The position numbers and the translations under genes are program-made. The notes below the pieces were generated by a model. The model was not told the origin of the DNA, made no database searches, and saw only the letters and a list, made by a program, of their open reading frames with translations. Below, one piece after another: positions 42,286-57,359 of a stretch of 57,507 nt of DNA (the stretch's first letter is position 1; each line of letters opens with the position of its first letter). The DNA is taken from NCBI GenBank assembly GCA_016873395.1, contig VGXG01000013.1, positions 1 to 57,507 on the forward strand, written 5' to 3'. This DNA comes from Nitrospira sp. (GTDB lineage: Bacteria > Nitrospirota > Nitrospiria > Nitrospirales > Nitrospiraceae).

Positions 42286-43521
42286 TTATTGCAGCGGGAC
42301 GTTCACCGCCTGTTTCACGATAGGAATCGGCTGAAAGACGGGATCTTGCGCCCCCTTCGAGGATTCGGCCTCGATACGTTGCAGGAACGCCGCCGGCCCG
42401 GTCACCGGCGCATAGCTGAGCAGGGCCTCCACGTCAAACGATCTGGTGTCTTTGGGCGTGGGGAACGTGAACGTCTCGACGCGGGTCTCCTCCGGCTTGA
42501 GAACCGTATCCTCCAACACCTTGACGGCCATGAAATCGAAGGAAGTCTTTTGCCCCTTCGCATCGGCAAAGACCCGCCCGTAGACCCGTTGTTCGGCAAA
42601 GACGGTTTTCAGATTCTTGCCCTTGATGGCCAGGTCCAGCACCACCTTGGCCCAGGCCGGATGGGTCGTGGGAAGATTGTGCGGGACCAGACTCTGGACT
42701 TTCACCGTCACCTTCGTCTGATCCCCCTTCACCGAGGTCTCAATCTCCAGCTTCGCCGCCTCCTGCCGGAGCTTGCCGATCCGCCCGGGGAACGTATGGT
42801 TGGCGACTTTCCGCTTGTTCTCGCCGTTGGCCGATTCCCCGACCTGCTCCGGCATGTGGCAGGTCTGACATTCTTTCCCGGCCTTGATCGCTTTGCTGCT
42901 TTCCCACCCTCCCAGCAAATCGTTGGCCTTCCCCAAATTGGCCGCAGCCGGAACAGACAGGTGGCAGTTCAAACAGAGGTCTGATTTTCTGAACAGATCC
43001 AGCTCCAGAGACTGGTGGGCCAAGTTCTGGACGAAATCTTTATAGGGACCGAACAGCGTTTTCCCCGGCTCATATTTGGGAACCGGCGGATGACGAGCCC
43101 GGTCCACCTGTTTGATCAAATGACACTGGGTACAGCCCACTCCGTCGATCGCCGGGTCACCCGATTGAACCTGGGCGACAAAGACCTGGACTTGATCGAC
43201 AAATTCGTTGACGTGGGGCGCGTGGCACCGCAAACAGAGGGCCTTGTCTTTGCTGCCGGCAAAGGCCAGGTACTCATCAAGCGAAGCCCTGAAGGCGGGA
43301 GAGTGAATGGACCGTGAGAGAGGGGAGGCTTCCCATTCCTCAAACACCCGCTCGTGACACCGCTTGCATTTGTTGGAACTCGGAAAGACCTTGTCCAGGG
43401 ACCCCTTGGCCTTCGACGAATCCTGTGCCAAACTGAGACCGCCGGTGCTCCAGGCAATCGCGAGCCCGACGAAGACGGCGAGCGCGGCAGCAACGCTGAT
43501 CGGTCGGCTCTTCTTGGTCAC
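42286..43521 (-). CDS. Pentahaem cytochrome c (tandem copy 1)
   Basis: 411-aa protein with a signal peptide (AAALAVFVGLAIAWSTGGLS) and CxxCH motifs at residues 52, 96, 130, 183 and 218. A beta-sandwich domain follows. It shares the motif spacing and fold with the 43559 gene, the upstream neighbour 37 bp away. Probably periplasmic and an electron carrier of the respiratory chain. It is the last gene of the minus-strand cluster. Confidence 0.92.
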   Translation of the reverse strand: MTKKSRPISVAAALAVFVGLAIAWSTGGLSLAQDSSKAKGSLDKVFPSSNKCKRCHERVFEEWEASPLSRSIHSPAFRASLDEYLAFAGSKDKALCLRCHAPHVNEFVDQVQVFVAQVQSGDPAIDGVGCTQCHLIKQVDRARHPPVPKYEPGKTLFGPYKDFVQNLAHQSLELDLFRKSDLCLNCHLSVPAAANLGKANDLLGGWESSKAIKAGKECQTCHMPEQVGESANGENKRKVANHTFPGRIGKLRQEAAKLEIETSVKGDQTKVTVKVQSLVPHNLPTTHPAWAKVVLDLAIKGKNLKTVFAEQRVYGRVFADAKGQKTSFDFMAVKVLEDTVLKPEETRVETFTFPTPKDTRSFDVEALLSYAPVTGPAAFLQRIEAESSKGAQDPVFQPIPIVKQAVNVPLQ

Positions 43522-43558: not shown

Positions 43559-44851
43559 TTACAGCGACTTGGTACGGAACGTCAACACACGCGCCTGCGT
43601 ATATTCCTGAATCAACTTCGCGGCCTTGGCACGATCCTGCTCGCTCGCGAGCGTCGCCAGGTATCGTTCCTTGAGTCCTGGCTCCGGCTCCGGGATCAGC
43701 GCGTAGGTCAGAAGCGCTTCCACGCTGGCCGGGACTGCTCCAGTCGGGATCGCGGCAGTGAAGGGGATGTGCTTGGTGGTCCCGCCTCGCACCAGGGGCT
43801 CAGGGATCGGCCCTCGAAGAAGCTGGTCGAATGGCAGGCCGAAGCGTTTCTGCTCTGTGGACAAAACTTCTCCCTTGGCATCCTTCACTGTGATCGTCAT
43901 GAAGTATTGCTTCAGCACCGGGTCTCCGTCGGGAAAGCTATGGGGGAGGCTGCCGGTTCGCACGAGTACCCTGCCTTCCACTGACGTTGCAGATTTCTTC
44001 GCCTCGATGTCGACGCGGGGCATCCATTCCGCCTGCAGGTTGCGATTTTTCAGCATGACGCCCGGAATGACCACGCCTCGAAACCAGTGCCGTCCGATCG
44101 AGCGGGTCATGGACCCGCGTTTAGAGGTGGAACTGCCGGTCGAAGGCTCCATGTGACAGTCCTGGCAGATGGTCCCTTGCAGGATTTCGCCGGGCAGGTC
44201 TCGGCGGGTAACATCCTTGACCTTGTCAAAATGGCAGGAGGCGCAGTAGTTGGCGCCTCGGAACAGATCGGATTGGCTGGAAGGATGGACCAAGTTCTCC
44301 TCCGGGTCGGTATAGGGGCCGTAGAGGACCTTGCCGGCTTGGACTTTGAATGAAGGTGGAGGAGTCGGCGTGGCCGCAACGCTGTTGATCAGGTGGCAGG
44401 ACGCGCAGCCGATGCCTTCCACTTGCACCTTCCCGGAGAGGACCTGTCCCACAATCTTGTCCGTATGTTGGGGAAAGACCGTCACAGACGGCGCGTGGCA
44501 GGACAAGCAGCGGGTTTTCTGCTCAGCCGTCGGATTGGTCTGAAGCCAGAGCCCCAGGACCGTCCGGAAGACGGAGGACTCTAACGCGGTGCCGTGCAGG
44601 AGGGCCGCATCCACCCGGCCGAAGGTCTTGAGGTCGGGGGTCTGCTCCCGCATCCCCTTCCATTCCTCGTAGTGCCGGTCGTGGCACTGTTTGCAATCCT
44701 CCGAGCGGATGAAGACCCGTTCAATCTCTTCGACCCACGAAGCCGTCCGGCCGTCCGCCCTTTGGGCACGCGCAGGCCCCTGGTCCAGCGCGGTTCCGCC
44801 GACGAGCAACGCAAGCAGGATTCCGCCGACCAGCAGTATGACTCTCCCCAT
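43559..44851 (-). CDS. Pentahaem cytochrome c (tandem copy 2)
   Basis: 430-aa protein with signal peptide (GRVILLVGGILLALLVGGTA) and CxxCH motifs at residues 53, 115, 149, 203 and 229 (CKQCH, CLSCH, CASCH, CASCH, CQDCH). The C-terminal half is a beta domain as in the 42286 gene. The two are paralogues placed head to tail. The sequence spacing between haems 2 and 3 (34 residues) is the same in both. Confidence 0.92.
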   Translation of the reverse strand: MGRVILLVGGILLALLVGGTALDQGPARAQRADGRTASWVEEIERVFIRSEDCKQCHDRHYEEWKGMREQTPDLKTFGRVDAALLHGTALESSVFRTVLGLWLQTNPTAEQKTRCLSCHAPSVTVFPQHTDKIVGQVLSGKVQVEGIGCASCHLINSVAATPTPPPSFKVQAGKVLYGPYTDPEENLVHPSSQSDLFRGANYCASCHFDKVKDVTRRDLPGEILQGTICQDCHMEPSTGSSTSKRGSMTRSIGRHWFRGVVIPGVMLKNRNLQAEWMPRVDIEAKKSATSVEGRVLVRTGSLPHSFPDGDPVLKQYFMTITVKDAKGEVLSTEQKRFGLPFDQLLRGPIPEPLVRGGTTKHIPFTAAIPTGAVPASVEALLTYALIPEPEPGLKERYLATLASEQDRAKAAKLIQEYTQARVLTFRTKSL

Positions 44852-45429: not shown

Positions 45430-46269
45430 TCACAGTCCCACCACAGGATCGATCGAGAGCTGGAACCAGGGAGCCACGGCCTTCTGTCCGTTCCGCTCCT
45501 TGTTTTCCCCGTTCCAGACAGCGAAGGCAATGGTCTGGATGCGGCCAGGCTCCAGGCGGGCCTCGTTTTCCTGATCCGTGCTGGCCAGCGGTCGCCTGAT
45601 GACCACGCGCCAGAGCCCGTCCTTCCAGGTCGCCTTTCCCTGGACCCTTCCCTGCGATTGCTTGCTGGTCAAGGTGCTGAACCCTCCGCCGACGAGGTCC
45701 TCAACGGAAGAAGCCCGCCGGGGAATCACTTCGAACCGGCGAACTTCTCCGCTTTCTCCCTTGCGTTCCGCGGCCCTGGCAGCCCGGCGATCGATATCGC
45801 TCTGCCAGTCGGCCTTCCAATGCCAGATATTGATGTAGTGATCCAGTTGCCCCATGCAGAAAAAGGCGGGGGCATCGCCGAGGGGAAGCCCGATGGCCAC
45901 TCCATCACGAAAGGTGCCCGGCGTCAGCCGATCGTTTTTGGTGTTGTCCTGCCACTCAAGGAGGAACGCGATGTCGGTCCCGTTGTGGACCGACCGGACC
46001 CCCAGCGCCCGCGCGCTCGGCTCGGGCCAGACGGGCCTCGTAATAACCTGGCCGCTGAGCGGCAGCATCAACGGCGGGATCTTGTCCCAGGCTGGGTCCT
46101 CCGGCACGGCTGGGATGTCGCCGGAAACAAGGTGGGACCGGATGAACATCCCTTCAGAGCTGACGATGGGAATGCCCAACCACCCAAGGACCAACGCGCT
46201 GAGCAAGAATCCGGATAACAGAGAGATAATGGAATGAGACCGGACCATCCATCGCTTCAATCGCGCCAT
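45430..46269 (-). CDS. NxrC-like haem-b gamma subunit (ethylbenzene dehydrogenase family)
   Basis: 279-aa protein. N-terminal anchor (IISLLSGFLLSALVLGWLG), then LPLSGQVITRPVWPEPSARA, FLLEWQDNTKND, and FFCMGQLDHYINIWHWKADW with Met139, the probable haem ligand as in EbdC-type subunits. This is the family of the gamma subunits of periplasmic molybdenum enzymes, including nitrite oxidoreductase. The catalytic alpha and beta subunits are not in the window. A related gene is at 52123. Confidence 0.85.
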   Translation of the reverse strand: MARLKRWMVRSHSIISLLSGFLLSALVLGWLGIPIVSSEGMFIRSHLVSGDIPAVPEDPAWDKIPPLMLPLSGQVITRPVWPEPSARALGVRSVHNGTDIAFLLEWQDNTKNDRLTPGTFRDGVAIGLPLGDAPAFFCMGQLDHYINIWHWKADWQSDIDRRAARAAERKGESGEVRRFEVIPRRASSVEDLVGGGFSTLTSKQSQGRVQGKATWKDGLWRVVIRRPLASTDQENEARLEPGRIQTIAFAVWNGENKERNGQKAVAPWFQLSIDPVVGL

Positions 46270-48815: not shown

Positions 48816-49925
48816 TCACGTCTGCTCGCCCGCCAACGTCCCCGCCGGACCGGCCAGCAGGCTTTCTTCCGCCGGCGCACCGGCCGGAGCCAGGAGCCGT
48901 CGGCGGTCCAAATTGAGTAGCAGCACACCGAGCACCACCATCAAGCTCAGGTGAGAGAGCTGGAGAGCGTAGCCGGCGATAAACATCAACCCCAGACCCA
49001 AACCAGCCATGCGCCCGATCGTGATCAACTTCACGACCGTGTAGGCCCAACAGAGTAAGCCGGCCACATAAAAGGCAAACGGGAGATAAAAGGTGTAGCC
49101 CATCCCCATCTGGAAAATCCAACCGATTCCTTCGCCGGCCTTGCGAACGGATTCCGCCACGGCCTGATCGTAGAGGGCGAGGAAATAGTCCAAAAAGAGC
49201 AGCCCGACAAAGGCTCCGCCTCCAACAAGCGCAAAGGTGGCCGCCCGCCGACGCTGCCGCTTATTCTTGGTCCACAGCGGGGTGGCACCATAGGCCCAGA
49301 ACACCAGGATGCTGGCCAGTACCATCAAGGCTTCTCCGGCCCGGTTCACTTCGTGCGCGAGCGGGGGAACCGCCGCAAGCTTCAACAGACCATAGACGGT
49401 GGATATCGTCTGATAGTAGAGCCAGCCGGCGACGCCGAGCAGATAACAGACGATCAGGCCCCGCTGGGCCCAGGGCTGGTGCGTCATGACATACTCGGCG
49501 ACCAAGGTGCCCAGGACCACAAGGAAAATGAGGTTGTACACAACCGATCCGAGCATCGTGGGAGGAAAGAGCAGGTAGGCGATGGTTACGAGCACGAGCA
49601 GGGACGTCGAAGGAACCAAGAGCGCGTCATAGCGCCCCTTGCCCACTCCTCGGACTTTATTGAACAGCACGAGAAAGAGCGCGAGGAATACCAGCAGCGA
49701 CACGAAGTTCAGGAGCGCGAACCCGATCGACGACAGGGCTTTTAGGGTGATCCGGACGGACTCATACTTCTGGGCCACCTTGCTCAGGTGCATGCCCAGC
49801 CTCGAGACGAGTCGATAGAGAATCAGCTCGAGGAACCCCGCCACCAACAGCAGCCTCGCCGTATAGTCAAAGAGCAGCCCCTGCTCTTCGCCCCTTCCGC
49901 CCCGCTCCACCGCTTCGCCTGCCAT
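48816..49925 (-). CDS. Polytopic inner-membrane protein of unknown function
   Basis: 369-aa protein with about eight or nine hydrophobic segments (e.g. LNFVSLLVFLALFLVLF, LVLVTIAYLLFPPTMLGSVV, LLFLDYFLALYDQAV). No known family recognised. The ATG at 49925 is chosen; a TTG at 49958 is possible. It is clustered with the TPR and TatA genes. Confidence 0.65.
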   Translation of the reverse strand: MAGEAVERGGRGEEQGLLFDYTARLLLVAGFLELILYRLVSRLGMHLSKVAQKYESVRITLKALSSIGFALLNFVSLLVFLALFLVLFNKVRGVGKGRYDALLVPSTSLLVLVTIAYLLFPPTMLGSVVYNLIFLVVLGTLVAEYVMTHQPWAQRGLIVCYLLGVAGWLYYQTISTVYGLLKLAAVPPLAHEVNRAGEALMVLASILVFWAYGATPLWTKNKRQRRRAATFALVGGGAFVGLLFLDYFLALYDQAVAESVRKAGEGIGWIFQMGMGYTFYLPFAFYVAGLLCWAYTVVKLITIGRMAGLGLGLMFIAGYALQLSHLSLMVVLGVLLLNLDRRRLLAPAGAPAEESLLAGPAGTLAGEQT

Positions 49926-50053
49926 GGTGCTGTCCGGTCCCTCTCTCCATAAACCCAAACCCTTGTTGGATTATAGCCAGAAGCCTCCGACAGCGTCAAC
50001 CCAACGCCCAGGCCAGAATCGAGCGCGACAGCGGACCATTACCTGGAGGGGAA

Positions 50054-51835
50054 CTAGGAGCCAGCCGGCTGTGGGATCTGCTGGGCCTGAGCCCTGGCCC
50101 GGGCAATGTAGAGGAGCCCGTCCGCCATCGAATAGTTGAAAGGCAGCTCGCAGACCACTTCGCTGATCTTTTCGTAAATATGCTGATAGACCCGCTCCGC
50201 CTGCTCGGGAGTCATCCCTTCCTTGACCTCGTAGAAGAAGCCCAGACTCAGGTCCTCCGAGGCGGGCCGCATGATGCGCCGGATCCCATAGCCGCCGGGA
50301 TCGCTCATGATCGGCGCCTCCTTTTCCAGATCAAACAGGCAAGGCTGGCATGAGAAGCCATAGGACGAATGCAGGCGTCGATTGTCCACGATGAACCGCA
50401 TCGTCTCGAGCGCCTCTTCCTCCGTCTCGGTCGGGAACCCGGCGATGATATAGCAGTGAACGGCGATGCCCAGGTCAAGGCAATCCTCCGTCACGCGACG
50501 TACGCTGGCCTGGGTGATGCCCTTCTTCATAAAATCCATGACCCGCTGGTTGAAGGATTCCAGGCCGAACACGATTTTGAGACACCCGGCGTCCCGCATC
50601 AGCGTCAGGAGATCCCGCGACAGATTCTTCTCAAACCGCATCTCGCAGGTCCATTGCAGATTCAGGTTCCGGTCGAGAACCTGCTGACACATCCGCTTGG
50701 TCGGAGACAAAGCGAAACATTCGTCCGTGAAGAAGAAAAACGGGGTCTGATACTTTTCCGACAACATCTGCAGATCATCGACCGTCTTGGCCGGGTCTTT
50801 CTGCCGGAAGTTCTGATGGTCGAGCGTCAAGGCACAAAACGCGCAGTCCTTGTAGTAGCAGCCTCGGGAAAACTGCACGGGGAGGACGGTGCGGGGCGCT
50901 AGGTACTGTCCGAGCGGAAACCCGTCATAGCTCGGCGCCGGCAGCGCGTTGATGTTTTCCGAGTAAAACGGCTGGTTGACCGTGATTTTGCCGTTCTGGC
51001 GATAGATCAGGTTGGGCACCTTGGCAAAGTCTCGCTTGCCTTCCAGTTGGTTGACCAGCTCTAACAGCGCCGTCTCCCCTTCAAAGACGATAAAATCATC
51101 GGTTAAGTCGAACAAGGACGGACACCGGCGCAGGTTATCCACCAGCCGGGTGAAAATGCTCCCGCCGATCGTCAGGTGCAGATCTGGGTTCGCCTCCTTG
51201 ATCAGCCGGCACAGGGTGAGCCCTGGGACGATCTGGGAGGTAGCCGTGATGGAGACCCCGACCATATCCGGCTGGTCGGCCAAGATCGAAGGGAGGAACC
51301 GTTCCCGAAACAAGGCGATGTAGGGATTCTGCTCCTCGTCCCTGATGGCCGCCATCAGGTCCCTGGAGGAATAGATGGAATAGGTGCTGAACTGATTGTC
51401 CACCACGGTCAAGCGCGTCGGGAAATAGAGGGTCGAGAGCAACTCCAGCCACTTGTCGACCAGAAAGAGACTCTCGCGGTACCGCTCGATCTCGTAGAAC
51501 TCCTGGCCTCGCAGGGCTTCCTTGGCCGGTTCGATGCGGTCAATGAGGTAGGGGAATCGGTCCAGCGATTCCACCACCCGGCTGTAATGCTCGGCGCTGT
51601 TCGGTCCTGTTTCCCCCGTCCGCTCCCGCTCCAGCCTCTTCACTTTTTCAAGGAGCTGCGGGTAGAGCCGCTCCCCGTACTGTTGCGTCAGGATACCGTC
51701 GAGGAGCTCGATGCCCAGATCGCGCTGGGTGACGTTCGTGACGCCGGCCTGATTCAGAAACCCGGTCAGCGAAGGCAGGCTCAGGTAGGGCTGAGAGGGA
51801 TGCCAGGTCGGAGGAAACAGCAGGGATATCTTCAC
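50054..51835 (-). CDS. B12-binding-type radical SAM protein
   Basis: 593-aa protein. N-terminal cobalamin-binding-like region (KISLLFPPTWHPSQPYLSLP), then a radical SAM core whose cluster motif is RGCYYKDCAFCALTL, with spacing CX4CX2C instead of CX3CX2C. C-terminal DUF4080-like region (LESFNQRVMDFMKKGITQAS). Functions in such families include methylation and maturation. The substrate is unknown. It is in the middle of the respiratory cluster. Confidence 0.85.
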   Translation of the reverse strand: MKISLLFPPTWHPSQPYLSLPSLTGFLNQAGVTNVTQRDLGIELLDGILTQQYGERLYPQLLEKVKRLERERTGETGPNSAEHYSRVVESLDRFPYLIDRIEPAKEALRGQEFYEIERYRESLFLVDKWLELLSTLYFPTRLTVVDNQFSTYSIYSSRDLMAAIRDEEQNPYIALFRERFLPSILADQPDMVGVSITATSQIVPGLTLCRLIKEANPDLHLTIGGSIFTRLVDNLRRCPSLFDLTDDFIVFEGETALLELVNQLEGKRDFAKVPNLIYRQNGKITVNQPFYSENINALPAPSYDGFPLGQYLAPRTVLPVQFSRGCYYKDCAFCALTLDHQNFRQKDPAKTVDDLQMLSEKYQTPFFFFTDECFALSPTKRMCQQVLDRNLNLQWTCEMRFEKNLSRDLLTLMRDAGCLKIVFGLESFNQRVMDFMKKGITQASVRRVTEDCLDLGIAVHCYIIAGFPTETEEEALETMRFIVDNRRLHSSYGFSCQPCLFDLEKEAPIMSDPGGYGIRRIMRPASEDLSLGFFYEVKEGMTPEQAERVYQHIYEKISEVVCELPFNYSMADGLLYIARARAQAQQIPQPAGS

Positions 51836-52122: not shown

Positions 52123-53076
52123 TTAGGGCAGCTTCAGCGTAAACCACGTGGAAATGCCTTTCATGCCGTTCCGCTCGACGTTGGTCCCATCCCACACGGC
52201 AAAAGCCACCGGAACCGACGTGCCTGCCTTGAACTGCACGTCGTTGGAGTCGCTGGTGGTCAGCGCACGCTTGACGACAATGCGCCAGGTCGGACCGCTG
52301 CAGCAGCCGCCCTTGACCGAGCCGGCCGGCTCCCACACGCCGTTGCCGATCACATCCTGATGCGCCTGCGTGGTCAGCGTGCTGAACCCGTTGGCGTTGA
52401 GGTCCTCCACCGAACTCACACGCAGGGTCGGATCCGACAGGATGTTCCCTGACCAGATGCCCGGATTGAAGGGCCCGAGGCTCCGGCCGATCCGGTCCGG
52501 ATAGGTCACGCCGCCAGCCGGCTCTTCAAAGTAGTAGTCCCAGAAGATGCCGGGATACTGGTCGTCCACGTCCCACATGCCCGCGCTATCCTTGCCAAGG
52601 TCCTTCTGCCATTCCGCATTCCAGCGCCAGATGTTGACCGTGCCGCCGGACTGCCCCATGCACTGGAACGGGGGCGCTCCCGACGTATTCACCGGGAACT
52701 GGATCGCGGCCTGATCGCGGAAGTCCTGCGGCCCGATCGTGGTATTGTTCATCGTCTGGTCAGCCCAGTCCAGCCGGAAGCCGAGTTCCTTTCCGTTCGA
52801 GACCGCCTTCACAAAGACGGACTTCACGGAAATGTTCGGATGCATCGGGGTGGTGATCGTCTGCCCGCTCAGCGGCACGACCAGGCCCGGCACCCCTTCC
52901 CAGACGGGGTTGGCCCCATCCATCGGGATCGGCCCCTTGATCGCCTTGACCGGAATGGTGACCGGTTGGCTGACCGCAAGCGGAACCTGCCCGACCGTCA
53001 GCATCACACCCACGACGAGTGCAGAGAGAAGAATGCCAAACACCAGCTTTTTGTTGCGTGTCTGCACCACTCTCAT
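52123..53076 (-). CDS. NxrC-like haem-b gamma subunit, second copy
   Basis: 317-aa protein with signal peptide (LVFGILLSALVVGVMLTVGQ). Domain motifs match the 45430 gene: VPLSGQTITTPMHPNISVKS, FRLDWADQTMNNTT, FQCMGQSGGTVNIWRWNAEW with Met140 as the probable haem ligand, AFAVWDGTNVERNGMKGIST. Expected role: transfers electrons from the molybdenum enzyme to cytochrome c. The RBS is GAGGAGGG. Confidence 0.88.
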   Translation of the reverse strand: MRVVQTRNKKLVFGILLSALVVGVMLTVGQVPLAVSQPVTIPVKAIKGPIPMDGANPVWEGVPGLVVPLSGQTITTPMHPNISVKSVFVKAVSNGKELGFRLDWADQTMNNTTIGPQDFRDQAAIQFPVNTSGAPPFQCMGQSGGTVNIWRWNAEWQKDLGKDSAGMWDVDDQYPGIFWDYYFEEPAGGVTYPDRIGRSLGPFNPGIWSGNILSDPTLRVSSVEDLNANGFSTLTTQAHQDVIGNGVWEPAGSVKGGCCSGPTWRIVVKRALTTSDSNDVQFKAGTSVPVAFAVWDGTNVERNGMKGISTWFTLKLP

Positions 53077-53169: not shown

Positions 53170-54135
53170 TCAGGCCGTTCCCACCGGCCCGCTCTCCTCT
53201 TTATCCTTGTCCTTCTCTTTATCGAGGAAATTCTGAGCCCCCACCTCGTTGAGCAGCATGGTCAGCTCATTGCCTTGATCCTGCGCGCCACACTCGTAGG
53301 TCTGACCCTCCGGCGCATTGAACGTCGCGGGCCGGTAATCAGCCTCCGAGTAAGGTTGCGGGGTGACCCCCAGGTAAGAAGCGTCGAAATCCATCCAGTC
53401 TGAAGAAAATTCCGCGATGTGGCGGAAGAAGCCGGAATCCGCCTTCTTGACCAGCATCCGAGCGAAGAGCGGCACCCATCGCCCGATATGATCCTTCACG
53501 AACTTCTTCTGGGCGTCAACGACGATCTGAATCTTTTCGGCCCCGTCGTGGCAGCGGGCGTAAGACTCCTTATAGGCAAGAAAATGCATGAACTCAAGTT
53601 CAACGCTCAAGTGGTCCATGCGCTCATGAATATCCTTCGAAAGCTCCACGCCGAAGGCACGATAGAACCCGGCGATGTCTCCCATGGTATGGGCCTGGCC
53701 GAAGACGTGGTCGTTACCGAAAAGGGTTTCGTAGGGGGGGCACTCCAGGGTGATGACGTTGCTGAACACACGCCGATGCTCAGCTTGCAGGTCGGACAAC
53801 TGCCAGTTCGCGCATTCGGACGCGATCCATCGTTCAATTTGATCCAAAGATTTCGACAGCGCGGTCAGCTTGCTCTTGGCTCGTTCTCCGCCGATGCCGT
53901 CCAACGCACGCCCGAGGCTGTCGATCGCGGAACGCCCGTCCTCCACAAATTCGCCGCTCTGCAGGTAGTCCAGAAATTCATCATCTTCGGGGTACAGCAT
54001 GCTCCACGAGACAAGGAGGTAGAGCTTACTGCGGCCCAAGGCCCGTTCAACCGCCGGTGAATCTTTGAGGGTGCCGGCTCCGGGAGCCATCGTGATCGGA
54101 TTCATCACGCTCCGCTGGCTCTCTTTTGTGGTCAT
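53170..54135 (-). CDS. TorD/NarJ-type molybdoenzyme chaperone
   Basis: 321-aa protein, all-helical, with SKLYLLVSWSMLYPEDDEFL, AEHRRVFSNVITLECPPYET and DIAGFYRAFGVELSKDIHER, the TorD pattern including the ECPPYET-like motif. It holds the molybdoenzyme alpha subunit for cofactor insertion and Tat export. The C-terminus is Lys/Glu-rich (DKEKDKDKEESG). It is 93 bp upstream of an NxrC-like gene. ATG 54135 behind GAGGGGAG. Confidence 0.9.
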   Translation of the reverse strand: MTTKESQRSVMNPITMAPGAGTLKDSPAVERALGRSKLYLLVSWSMLYPEDDEFLDYLQSGEFVEDGRSAIDSLGRALDGIGGERAKSKLTALSKSLDQIERWIASECANWQLSDLQAEHRRVFSNVITLECPPYETLFGNDHVFGQAHTMGDIAGFYRAFGVELSKDIHERMDHLSVELEFMHFLAYKESYARCHDGAEKIQIVVDAQKKFVKDHIGRWVPLFARMLVKKADSGFFRHIAEFSSDWMDFDASYLGVTPQPYSEADYRPATFNAPEGQTYECGAQDQGNELTMLLNEVGAQNFLDKEKDKDKEESGPVGTA

Positions 54136-54365: not shown

Positions 54366-54986
54366 TCATACTCCAGCGGATGGCCCTCCCGAAGCCAAGA
54401 CTCGAGTCGGGACGACTCGGATGGCGATCTTGTCGTTGACGGTCTTGCAGACCTGCTCACAGATCCCGCAGCCGACGCAGCGACTCGGCTCGACCAGGAG
54501 GCGGAAGTAATCAAAATCCATTGCCAGAGCCTCGGTCGGGCAGCGGGAGACGCAGGCATGACAACCTTGCCCCGCTGTACAGTCTCGATGGGATACGCGG
54601 GCCTGGCCCATTCTGACTTCTTCTTTGCCGGAGACTTCGAGCAAGGCGTCGGTTTCGCAGGCCGCGATGCAGGGAAAATCATCGCAAAGGTGGCAGGGGA
54701 CCTCGTCGGGAAAGATCACCGGGAACCCGACTGTCCGATCGGGCTTGATGCTCTCGTAGGGACAGGCTTTGATGCAATCGCCGCACTTGGTGCAGCGCTC
54801 CAGAAAGAGCGCCTCCGCAACCGCGCCGGGCGGCCGCAACCAATCGGCCCGCGGGGGCGGTTCGGTTTTTCTCGCCTGTTCCGACGGCGTGTCCCGGTGT
54901 TTGACGAATTCCTGCGCCGTCTTGGCCAGCGAAAGGACCGAATCCTTCAGAAAGTGCCGTCGCCCGTATTGCGGATCAGCCGCCAT
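54366..54986 (-). CDS. Ferredoxin with four [4Fe-4S] clusters (NapG/NapF-like)
   Basis: 206-aa protein. Cys groups at 65/68/71/75, 98/101/106/110, 136/142/145/149 and 170/173/176/180 would bind four 4Fe-4S clusters. Near the start is GRRHFLK, a twin-arginine motif, but the hydrophobic region after it is weak. The family passes electrons to molybdenum enzymes or quinols. It is 25 bp downstream of the HELMH gene and upstream of torD. Confidence 0.88.
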   Translation of the reverse strand: MAADPQYGRRHFLKDSVLSLAKTAQEFVKHRDTPSEQARKTEPPPRADWLRPPGAVAEALFLERCTKCGDCIKACPYESIKPDRTVGFPVIFPDEVPCHLCDDFPCIAACETDALLEVSGKEEVRMGQARVSHRDCTAGQGCHACVSRCPTEALAMDFDYFRLLVEPSRCVGCGICEQVCKTVNDKIAIRVVPTRVLASGGPSAGV

Positions 54987-55011: not shown

Positions 55012-56010
55012 CTACATGACGCCGTCGGCCCGAAGCTTGTAGACTTCGACGCAGCGGTCACAGGCGCCGAACTCCGTATCCCAGCCGGGATGGTTCTCGC
55101 GGATAAAGTCGAGCACGTGCTTTTCGACCTTGTGCTCAAGATCCTCCACCCAGGAATAGGTGGGGAAGCGGCAGAGCGGACAGGGAAATCCCGGCATCAG
55201 CATGACCCGGTTCTGGACATCCGGGAGCTCTCCGCCTTCCACGTCCAACGCCCGCTCCATGATCCGCAGGGTGTCCGTGGCCATCTCCACCAGTTCGGAG
55301 TGGGTGAGCATGTCCGCTTGCCACAACCCCTCGAACACTGATTTCAACTGGGCCGGAGGAATCTTGCGGTACCAGGAACGGAACTCCTTGAACCGGTCTT
55401 CCCGGCTCAACATCGGTTCCTTCCCGGCCCGGATCAGGCGGCTATCGATGTTCAGGCACCACAGAACTCGATATCGGTGCAGAATCAGCGTCTCTTCCCC
55501 GGGGTTCTGTCCCACCTTGGTGTCCGGATCATAGTTGAAGGCCGGGTCCAGCATGTCGGAGATGTGCATCAGTTCGTGGCGACAGTAGCGCGTCAAGGCC
55601 GGATCGTAGAATCGCCGCGGAATCAGCTTGATCCCGACTCCCTTGAGCCCTTTCTCTTCAAACTGCTGGGCCAGGTCCTGCTCCACCGATCCCCATTTCC
55701 TTAAAATGTCGACGCCTTCTTGGTCTTCTTTGAGGACGCCCTTGATCAAGACGATCCCGATCCGCTCTTTGAGCGCCGGAAACTCGCCGAACGCATCCCG
55801 GATGATGTCCGAAAAGCCCCAGGTCCCGAAGAAATACTGGTAGAGCTTCTTGAACTCGGCCTCGCGATCATCCAGCGTGAACCGCTCATAGATCGGGTCG
55901 GCCAGCTCATGAAACTCCTTGTAGTAGGTCGGGTCGCCTTCCCGTTCCGTTTTTTCGACAAAGGAGTCGATCACTTCTTGAAGGAGGGCCGGCTGAAATC
56001 TGATATCCAT
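55012..56010 (-). CDS. HELMH (HExxH) and CxxC protein of unknown function
   Basis: 332-aa protein, no signal peptide, not recognised. It has RHELMHISDMLDPAF (His145, Glu146, His149, the HExxH pattern of zincin peptidases), then PCPLC (C277, C280) and CDRC (C317, C320), which could form a zinc ribbon. It is first in the run of minus-strand genes that includes ferredoxin and TorD. RBS is AGGAGAG. Confidence 0.6.
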   Translation of the reverse strand: MDIRFQPALLQEVIDSFVEKTEREGDPTYYKEFHELADPIYERFTLDDREAEFKKLYQYFFGTWGFSDIIRDAFGEFPALKERIGIVLIKGVLKEDQEGVDILRKWGSVEQDLAQQFEEKGLKGVGIKLIPRRFYDPALTRYCRHELMHISDMLDPAFNYDPDTKVGQNPGEETLILHRYRVLWCLNIDSRLIRAGKEPMLSREDRFKEFRSWYRKIPPAQLKSVFEGLWQADMLTHSELVEMATDTLRIMERALDVEGGELPDVQNRVMLMPGFPCPLCRFPTYSWVEDLEHKVEKHVLDFIRENHPGWDTEFGACDRCVEVYKLRADGVM

Positions 56011-56258
56011 TGATGCGTCTCTCCTGCTGCCTCCCTCTTCCGATCAGGCTGTCTCGTGGTTGCCGGTCATCGAGGGCATTCGCGAGGACGGGAGTTCGGC
56101 GGCTGCTTGACTTGGTTTCAGAGCCTCTTTTATGATCTGAGTCAGATCAATCCGCTCGTGTCGTGATTATAGTCACGAGGAGCGGCATTTGCAAATACCG
56201 CGAACCACGTGCGCGAGGCTGTCCGGCTTCGCCGAGAACCGTCAGGAGGCATTCGTTA
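56011..56258. promoter_or_regulatory. Divergent control region with three palindromes
   Basis: Plus-strand promoter TTGACT (56107-56112) and TATGAT (56131-56136), 18-bp spacer. Palindrome A: TGATCTGAGTCAGATCA (56133-56149), perfect, over the -10. Palindrome B: TCGTGATTATAGTCACGA (56161-56178), perfect 6+6 with a 6-bp spacer, CRP/FNR-like layout. Palindrome C: ATTTGCAAAT (56187-56196), perfect. They could bind a regulator for the WD40 gene, the HELMH operon, or both. Confidence 0.65.
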
Positions 56259-57359
56259 ATGGCTGATTCTTTTGTCGCTCCAACCGGCGGCGGCCAGGCT
56301 GGCTTGGCTCCGGCGAACCCCGCAACCTCTCCGACCGTGGACTTGCTCGCGTACTGGAAGGCCGGGGCGCATGAGATCAAAACGTTCCGGGGCCATTCGC
56401 AGGGCATCTGGACCGTCGCCTATGCGCCGGACGGGCTCACGCTGATCAGCGGCGGCGCCGATCGGCTCGTCCGCATCTGGGACGTCGAAACGGGACGCTT
56501 GCTGCGGTCGCTGCGCGGCCATACCCACGACATTCGCGCGGCGGTCTTCACGCCCGACGGGCAGACGCTTGCCACCGGCAGCGAAGACCGCACGATCCGG
56601 CTCTGGAACCCGAAGACCGGGGAACCGACCAAGCTGCTCTTTACCCGCTACGATCACAATGTCTGCAGCCTTTCGCTCTCTCCCGACGGCCTCATGCTGG
56701 CGCGCGGAAGCCACAACAAAGACATCAAGATCTGGGAGATCACCACGGGGACCGAGCTCATGACTCTGCTCGGAAAAGATCAGTACGACCATCACTGGAC
56801 TCCGGTCGTCGCCTTCTCCCCGGACGGCATCCATCTGGCCAGCGGCTCCGACATCGGAAAGATCAAGATCTGGGAGGTCCTCCCCAGCGGCGAGGAGAAA
56901 GTGCTGCACAACGGACACTGGCTGGATATTGAAGACGACGACTCCACGGAGTACCGAGGGTATTTCGTCGAGGACGAGGGCGGGTTCCAGAAGCCGATGA
57001 ATTACTGGATCGGCGCCATCACCTTCACGCCGGACGGACGCACCCTCATCACGGGCAGCCGGGACTGTACGATCAAATTTTTCGAGATGCCCCAGGTCGC
57101 CGAAATCCGGACGCTCAAGGGACACGGGGGCTGGGTCCGCTCGCTGGTGGTTTCCCCGGACGGCAAGGTGCTGGCAAGCGCCAGCGACGATCAGACGATC
57201 AAGCTCTGGGAGATAGCGACGGGCCGCACCTTCCGGACCTTGAAGGCCCATGCGGGCGCGGTGCGCGGCCTGGCCTTTTCACCGGACGGGCTTCGCCTCG
57301 CCAGCGCGTCCTGGGACAAGACCGTCAAGCTGTGGGAAGGCGGAACGGAGCCGGCCTGA
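56259..57359 (+). CDS. WD40-repeat beta-propeller protein
   Basis: 366-aa protein with seven WD40 repeats, for example TFRGHSQGIWTVAYAPDGLT, SLRGHTHDIRAAVFTPDGQT, TLKGHGGWVRSLVVSPDGKV, TLKAHAGAVRGLAFSPDGLR, each ending with IKLWE/VRIWD. This would form one complete seven-bladed propeller, a scaffold for protein binding. ATG 56259 follows AGGAGG. It is divergent from the respiratory cluster and may be regulated with it through the palindromes. Confidence 0.92.
   Translation: MADSFVAPTGGGQAGLAPANPATSPTVDLLAYWKAGAHEIKTFRGHSQGIWTVAYAPDGLTLISGGADRLVRIWDVETGRLLRSLRGHTHDIRAAVFTPDGQTLATGSEDRTIRLWNPKTGEPTKLLFTRYDHNVCSLSLSPDGLMLARGSHNKDIKIWEITTGTELMTLLGKDQYDHHWTPVVAFSPDGIHLASGSDIGKIKIWEVLPSGEEKVLHNGHWLDIEDDDSTEYRGYFVEDEGGFQKPMNYWIGAITFTPDGRTLITGSRDCTIKFFEMPQVAEIRTLKGHGGWVRSLVVSPDGKVLASASDDQTIKLWEIATGRTFRTLKAHAGAVRGLAFSPDGLRLASASWDKTVKLWEGGTEPA

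Follow-up and report, generated by a model that had tools for sequence, protein, structure and literature searches.

The window, by which we mean the whole stretch of 57,507 nucleotides analysed here (contig VGXG01000013.1 of the Nitrospira sp. assembly GCA_016873395.1), carries a minus-strand run of genes headed by one that encodes a 332-residue protein with an HExxH motif and two C-terminal CxxC pairs, hereafter the HExxH protein. A gap of about 25 bp separates this gene from that of a NapG-like ferredoxin, which is followed by genes for a TorD-type chaperone, an EB_dh subunit, a radical SAM protein, a membrane protein, a TPR protein, a protein that reads as TatA from its sequence, an NHL protein and a second EB_dh subunit; beyond the latter come a 161-residue protein and then two multihaem cytochromes. 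The features used below are the following.

55012..56010, minus strand: HExxH protein with C-terminal CxxC-CxxC, 332 residues; open reading frame with ATG start
55564..55578, minus strand: HELMH motif, residues 145-149; H145, E146, H149 and the downstream D152 invariant
55492..55503, minus strand: PGEE, residues 170-173; P170, E172 and E173 invariant
55015..55200, minus strand: C-terminal zinc-ribbon-like stretch, residues 271-332, with C277xxC280 and C317xxC320; all four cysteines invariant
54366..54986, minus strand: ferredoxin related to NapG/MauM; Pfam Fer4, NapG model 110.7 bits (under cut-off)
53170..54135, minus strand: TorD/NarJ-type chaperone; PF02613 81.6 bits, TIGR03482 (type II DMSO-reductase chaperone) 82.4 bits (under cut-off)
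52123..53076, minus strand: haem-b gamma subunit (EB_dh) of type II DMSO-reductase kind, NxrC-like; PF09459, TIGR03477 144 bits (under cut-off)
50054..51835, minus strand: radical SAM protein with B12-binding domain; PF04055, PF02310 and synteny
48816..49958, minus strand: multi-helix membrane protein; no Pfam family
45430..46269, minus strand: second EB_dh gamma-type subunit; PF09459, TIGR03477 153.8 bits (under cut-off)
42286-43521 and 43559-44851, minus strand: two multihaem proteins with five CxxCH each
56163..57359, plus strand: WD40 beta-propeller gene, the divergent upstream neighbour; PF00400 229 bits
56166..56195, minus strand: promoter-like site TTGCAA-17-TATAAT upstream of the HExxH gene; consensus match only
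56107-56136, plus strand: promoter-like site for the divergent WD40 gene; consensus match only

Three such promoter-like sites were found versus 0.1 expected in shuffles. The relatives are Nitrospira and other Nitrospirales, and a counterpart of the locus has been published: the NITMOv2_3614-3631 cluster of N. moscoviensis, which is expressed, includes proteins of unknown function and was proposed to be diagnostic for nitrite-oxidising Nitrospirales (PMC12342949). There, nxrC_1 is NITMOv2_3617 and the ferredoxin is NITMOv2_3626 (PMC6606698, PMC6131200), and nxrC_2 is NITMOv2_3624, which adjoins the TorD gene NITMOv2_3625 (PMC6606698). The window shows the same gene order (NxrC_1 ... NxrC_2, TorD, NapG-like ferredoxin), with its EB_dh genes at 45430..46269 and 52123..53076 matching nxrC_1 and nxrC_2, respectively, by size and order; judged by gene position, the HExxH protein would be NITMOv2_3627, which is among the cluster's proteins of unknown function. 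The two five-CxxCH proteins match the pair of pentahaem cytochromes described from that cluster (PMC12342949). The accessory cluster is already in print; the motifs of the HExxH protein, their invariance and its distribution go undescribed in the main texts searched (PMC12342949, PMC6606698), no HExxH site is mentioned in the literature surveyed, and a literature search by locus tag returned no description of the protein. A putative zinc-finger protein appears among the nitrite oxidoreductase (NXR) genes common to Nitrospina, Nitrospira and Kuenenia (PMC3578206, Fig. 6), where HExxH is unmentioned; it may be the same protein, since the HExxH protein is the obvious CxxC/CxxC candidate in the window's cluster.

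The genes for NxrA and NxrB of the window's genome lie on another contig. When linkage to the HExxH gene was scored among 93 loci, wherever the contig allows, the divergent WD40 gene was found in 84 of 84 cases, the ferredoxin within 200 bp in 87 of 91, TorD in 76 of 76 and NxrC in 69 of 69. The earlier note had described the HExxH gene as the first of a run before ferredoxin and TorD, and this order is indeed what the window holds and what is kept in the scorable loci. The radical SAM protein, whose best NCBIfam hit is a RiPP C-methyltransferase model (under cut-off), is kept in loci with enough flank, and the membrane protein at 48816-49958, at a median identity of 53%, is less conserved than any other member of the run. 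In one genome (contig G133:C29, loci L160 and L161) the HExxH gene is split into pieces about 133 kb apart and in opposite orientation, one of which abuts the radical SAM gene; this looks like an inversion or a misassembly. One contig (locus L066) looks misbinned, since it is filed under a Bacteroidetes bin yet carries the Nitrospira gene at 85% identity.

Conserved residues of the HExxH protein

The HExxH protein (39 kDa, pI 5.1) has neither a signal peptide nor a membrane helix by hydropathy, which suggests a cytoplasmic location. The ferredoxin next to it begins with RRHFLK, a twin-arginine-like N-terminus, so that the ferredoxin may be exported, with the HExxH protein staying inside.

Since the window's reading frames of 100 codons or more hold five HExxH motifs in 49,732 residues, a lone HExxH says little by itself; the chance expectation for the HExxH protein, from composition alone, is about 0.02. 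The earlier note had assigned H145, E146, H149 and the pairs C277/C280 and C317/C320 to a 332-residue frame at 55012-56010, as we confirmed, and had named conservation of H145, E146 and H149 in orthologues as a check to be made. All three proved invariant in 121 distinct sequences, along with D152, P170, E172 and E173 and also R179, R181, W184, D189, R191, C277, C280, C317 and C320. The note's idea thus withstood its own refuting condition of HELMH residues that vary among orthologues. The x positions of the motif are free: around the local sequence R144-H145-E146-L147-M148-H149-I-S-D152, six or more different residues occur at position 148 (M, L, T, I, V and S among them), and position 147 is slightly variable. 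These sequences include the most divergent member, from a genome that we refer to as G233, which we pieced together from two overlapping contig ends, the joining of the two pieces being suggested by the overlap and by gene order. Its motif reads HELVH, and its two pieces show 32% and 43% identity to the window protein, with H/E/H kept in the half that is about 32% identical. For the HExxH protein, the median identity to the window protein is 84%, about that of NxrC (85%) and higher than those of TorD (74%) and of the ferredoxin (64%).

Because an invariant H/E/H is combined with an invariant downstream Glu pair, these data suggest a gluzincin-like zinc site, in which E172 or E173, lying 23-24 residues past H149, is a candidate third metal ligand. 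As judged from the sequences, the HExxH motif probably does form a functional metal site, and the metal bound would be zinc. As for the two CxxC pairs, which the earlier note read as a possible zinc ribbon, all four cysteines are kept without exception, and their binding of zinc is what we infer from this. Stand-alone CxxC/CxxC proteins of 60-69 residues found elsewhere in Nitrospirota (L134:7753-7932, minus strand; L136:8144-8350, minus strand; L138:7574-7777, plus strand; G233:C149:362-523) resemble the C-terminal ribbon of the HExxH protein, and no fitting Pfam family was found for them.

Family and fold searches

Searches with the window protein found nothing in Pfam at E<=1, nothing meaningful in NCBIfam and no matching sequence in PDB. 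The best Pfam scores of the G233 homologue, both to families of HExxH peptidases, fell over the motif and were sub-threshold: 14.8 bits versus a cut-off of 25.6 for SprT-like (PF10263), and 12.3 bits versus a cut-off of 25.2 for Peptidase M76 / Atp23 (PF09768). Membership of these two families was rejected, as was that of Peptidase M78 / ImmA-IrrE (PF06114), for which there was no Pfam match and an hhalign probability of 5.4% on 8 columns. By hhalign, the probability was 0.4% against SprT-like and 5% against M78, with both alignments on the motif. What the SprT-like and Atp23/M76 families do share with the HExxH protein is an HExxH placed on a helix after a strand; Atp23 is both a maturation protease and a chaperone.

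AlphaFold models, for which the input alignments were shallow (window and related-locus sequences only), reached a pLDDT of 58 and a pTM of 0.45 for the full protein, and a pLDDT of 66 and a pTM of 0.62 for core residues 60-258. The order predicted by these low-confidence models is strand, helix, strand, HExxH helix and a next helix starting at PGEE; both put HExxH in a helix preceded by a strand and have the following helix begin at PGEE, where pLDDT is below 50. The helix-like context that the earlier note had ascribed to the motif is thus also what the models predict, and the predicted order of secondary structure would be compatible with that of a zincin. Neither the full-length model nor that of residues 60-258 had a significant fold match (no PDB match with E<=0.001), and no zincin-named entry (peptidase, Spartan-like or IrrE-like) among the top viral fold matches was significant. 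No plasmid or viral relatives of the HExxH protein were found.

Distribution alongside nitrite oxidoreductase

A profile search over 396 genomes of the phylum found the HExxH protein in 138 of 141 genomes from the Nitrospirales families that carry NXR (three families, f1 to f3) and in G233, the sole other carrier among the genomes sampled. The three genomes without it (G147, G023 and G120) all belong to f1. Two of these, G147 and G023, bear NXR, and their contigs stop inside the ferredoxin gene, exactly where the HExxH gene should follow; its apparent loss in G036, G147 and G023 is explained by a stretch of N or by contigs that end within the ferredoxin gene and is not a real loss. In the third, G120, neither TorD nor nxrB was found. 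NxrB, TorD and the HExxH protein are all absent from a fourth family, f4, which probably corresponds to UBA2166, the only Nitrospirales clade without NXR (PMC12342949).

Beyond the Nitrospirales, there are NxrB-type matches at about 50% identity in genomes that lack the HExxH protein, and these are most likely nitrate-reductase-like subunits; only G233 has an NxrB of the NXR type (71% identity, the other full-length matches listed being at about 50%). The gene order in G233 is NxrB-TorD-NxrC-HExxH on one contig end and HExxH-ferredoxin on the other; judged by eye, an open reading frame resembling the membrane protein at 48816-49958 follows the ferredoxin there. Altogether, the HExxH protein is restricted to NXR-bearing genomes in the phylum searched, with f4 lacking both. 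The matching is not one-to-one, as in many draft genomes with the HExxH protein nxrB is missing from the assembly, probably because nxr copies are nearly identical and so assemble poorly.

Possible roles of the HExxH protein

Considering that, in the phylum searched, it is found only with NXR and beside the accessory genes of NXR, the HExxH protein probably helps to build this enzyme; that it is a factor dedicated to NXR in one way or another is very probable. Linkage alone fits biogenesis, electron transfer or regulation alike and does not separate them. The best explanation, to which we incline tentatively, is a cytoplasmic factor dedicated to NXR biogenesis that combines a gluzincin-like zinc site with a zinc ribbon at the C-terminus and that might be a maturation peptidase. 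A cytoplasmic biogenesis factor is suggested by the tight co-occurrence with NXR, by the linkage to TorD and NxrC that is kept in a remote lineage and by the lack of export signals.

According to this explanation, the client would be the periplasmic, type II DMSO-reductase-like NXR, on whose subunits the HExxH protein and the TorD chaperone would act before or during export. The first predicted site, in a mainly helical core, would have H145, H149 and E172 or E173 as ligands and E146 as general base, and its catalytic zinc could be used to trim a precursor or to clear wrongly assembled subunits; the second, a structural zinc ribbon formed by C277, C280, C317 and C320, may dock the protein on its client. 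The TorD/NarJ chaperones, encoded in the same operon and probably serving the same client, are unrelated in sequence, and the TorD gene is a distinct one, two places along from that of the HExxH protein.

The Glu of HExxH is the general base in zinc peptidases, and we lean towards catalysis because E146, which holds this position, is invariant. That the HExxH protein is an active peptidase is a possibility to be taken seriously, its activity and substrate being conjectural; counting against it, no peptidase matches the protein significantly in sequence or in fold, and no proteolytic step in NXR maturation is known in the literature surveyed. The earlier suggestion of a maturation protease or chaperone is supported in part, by the fixed linkage to TorD, ferredoxin and NxrC, which extends to the remote lineage, and by the co-occurrence with NXR; peptidase activity remains a conjecture. 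It is rather unlikely that the HExxH protein founds a new family of zinc peptidases dedicated to NXR; if it did, there would be an unrecognised step of proteolytic maturation or proofreading in the assembly or export of NXR, carried out by a protease as conserved as an NXR subunit.

Nearly all biological nitrate is made by NXR (PMC8387239), and assembly factors of this enzyme beyond the TorD-like chaperone are undefined in the literature surveyed. As a strictly co-occurring and highly conserved protein with a probable catalytic metal site, the HExxH protein is a concrete candidate for the missing maturation machinery, and it could also serve as a draft-genome marker that separates NXR-type from nitrate-reductase-type enzymes.

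The main rival, less probable than our tentative explanation and still a serious one, is an FdhE-like assembly factor of NXR without proteolytic activity, in which the zinc at HExxH would be structural or client-binding and the ribbon would contact NxrA or NxrB. FdhE works in the cytoplasm as a factor dedicated to formate dehydrogenase, a molybdenum enzyme exported by the Tat route; it has CxxC metal sites and, to our knowledge, no HExxH site. The genomic and co-occurrence evidence fits such a factor just as well, no peptidase family scores above cut-off, and a protein that is helical for the most part and carries a CxxC/CxxC ribbon at its C-terminus recalls FdhE. However, this possible likeness in working comes with no sequence match: none of 22 members matched FdhE (PF04216) at E<=10, and membership was rejected. 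Moreover, E146, dispensable in a site that is structural only, is strictly invariant together with D152, E172 and E173.

It is improbable that the HExxH protein is instead a regulatory or accessory part of the nitrite-oxidation electron chain, such as a soluble partner of NxrC or of the ferredoxin, or a cytoplasmic sensor. This role would suit an operon that also carries haem-b subunits, a ferredoxin and multihaem cytochromes and has a WD40 gene as neighbour, and a protein as conserved as NxrC, but there is no export signal, the two CxxC pairs are the only motif of a redox-cofactor type, and in G233 the HExxH gene stays with TorD. Finally, a fortuitous HExxH, in a helical protein whose conserved histidines bind no metal and whose ribbon is the sole metal site, could draw on the low-confidence models, on the absent fold match and on the five HExxH motifs of the window's reading frames, but it is very unlikely, and chance was rejected as the main reading, because exactly H, E and H are invariant with x variable down to a homologue of about 32% identity, accompanied by invariant acidic residues at gluzincin-like spacing.
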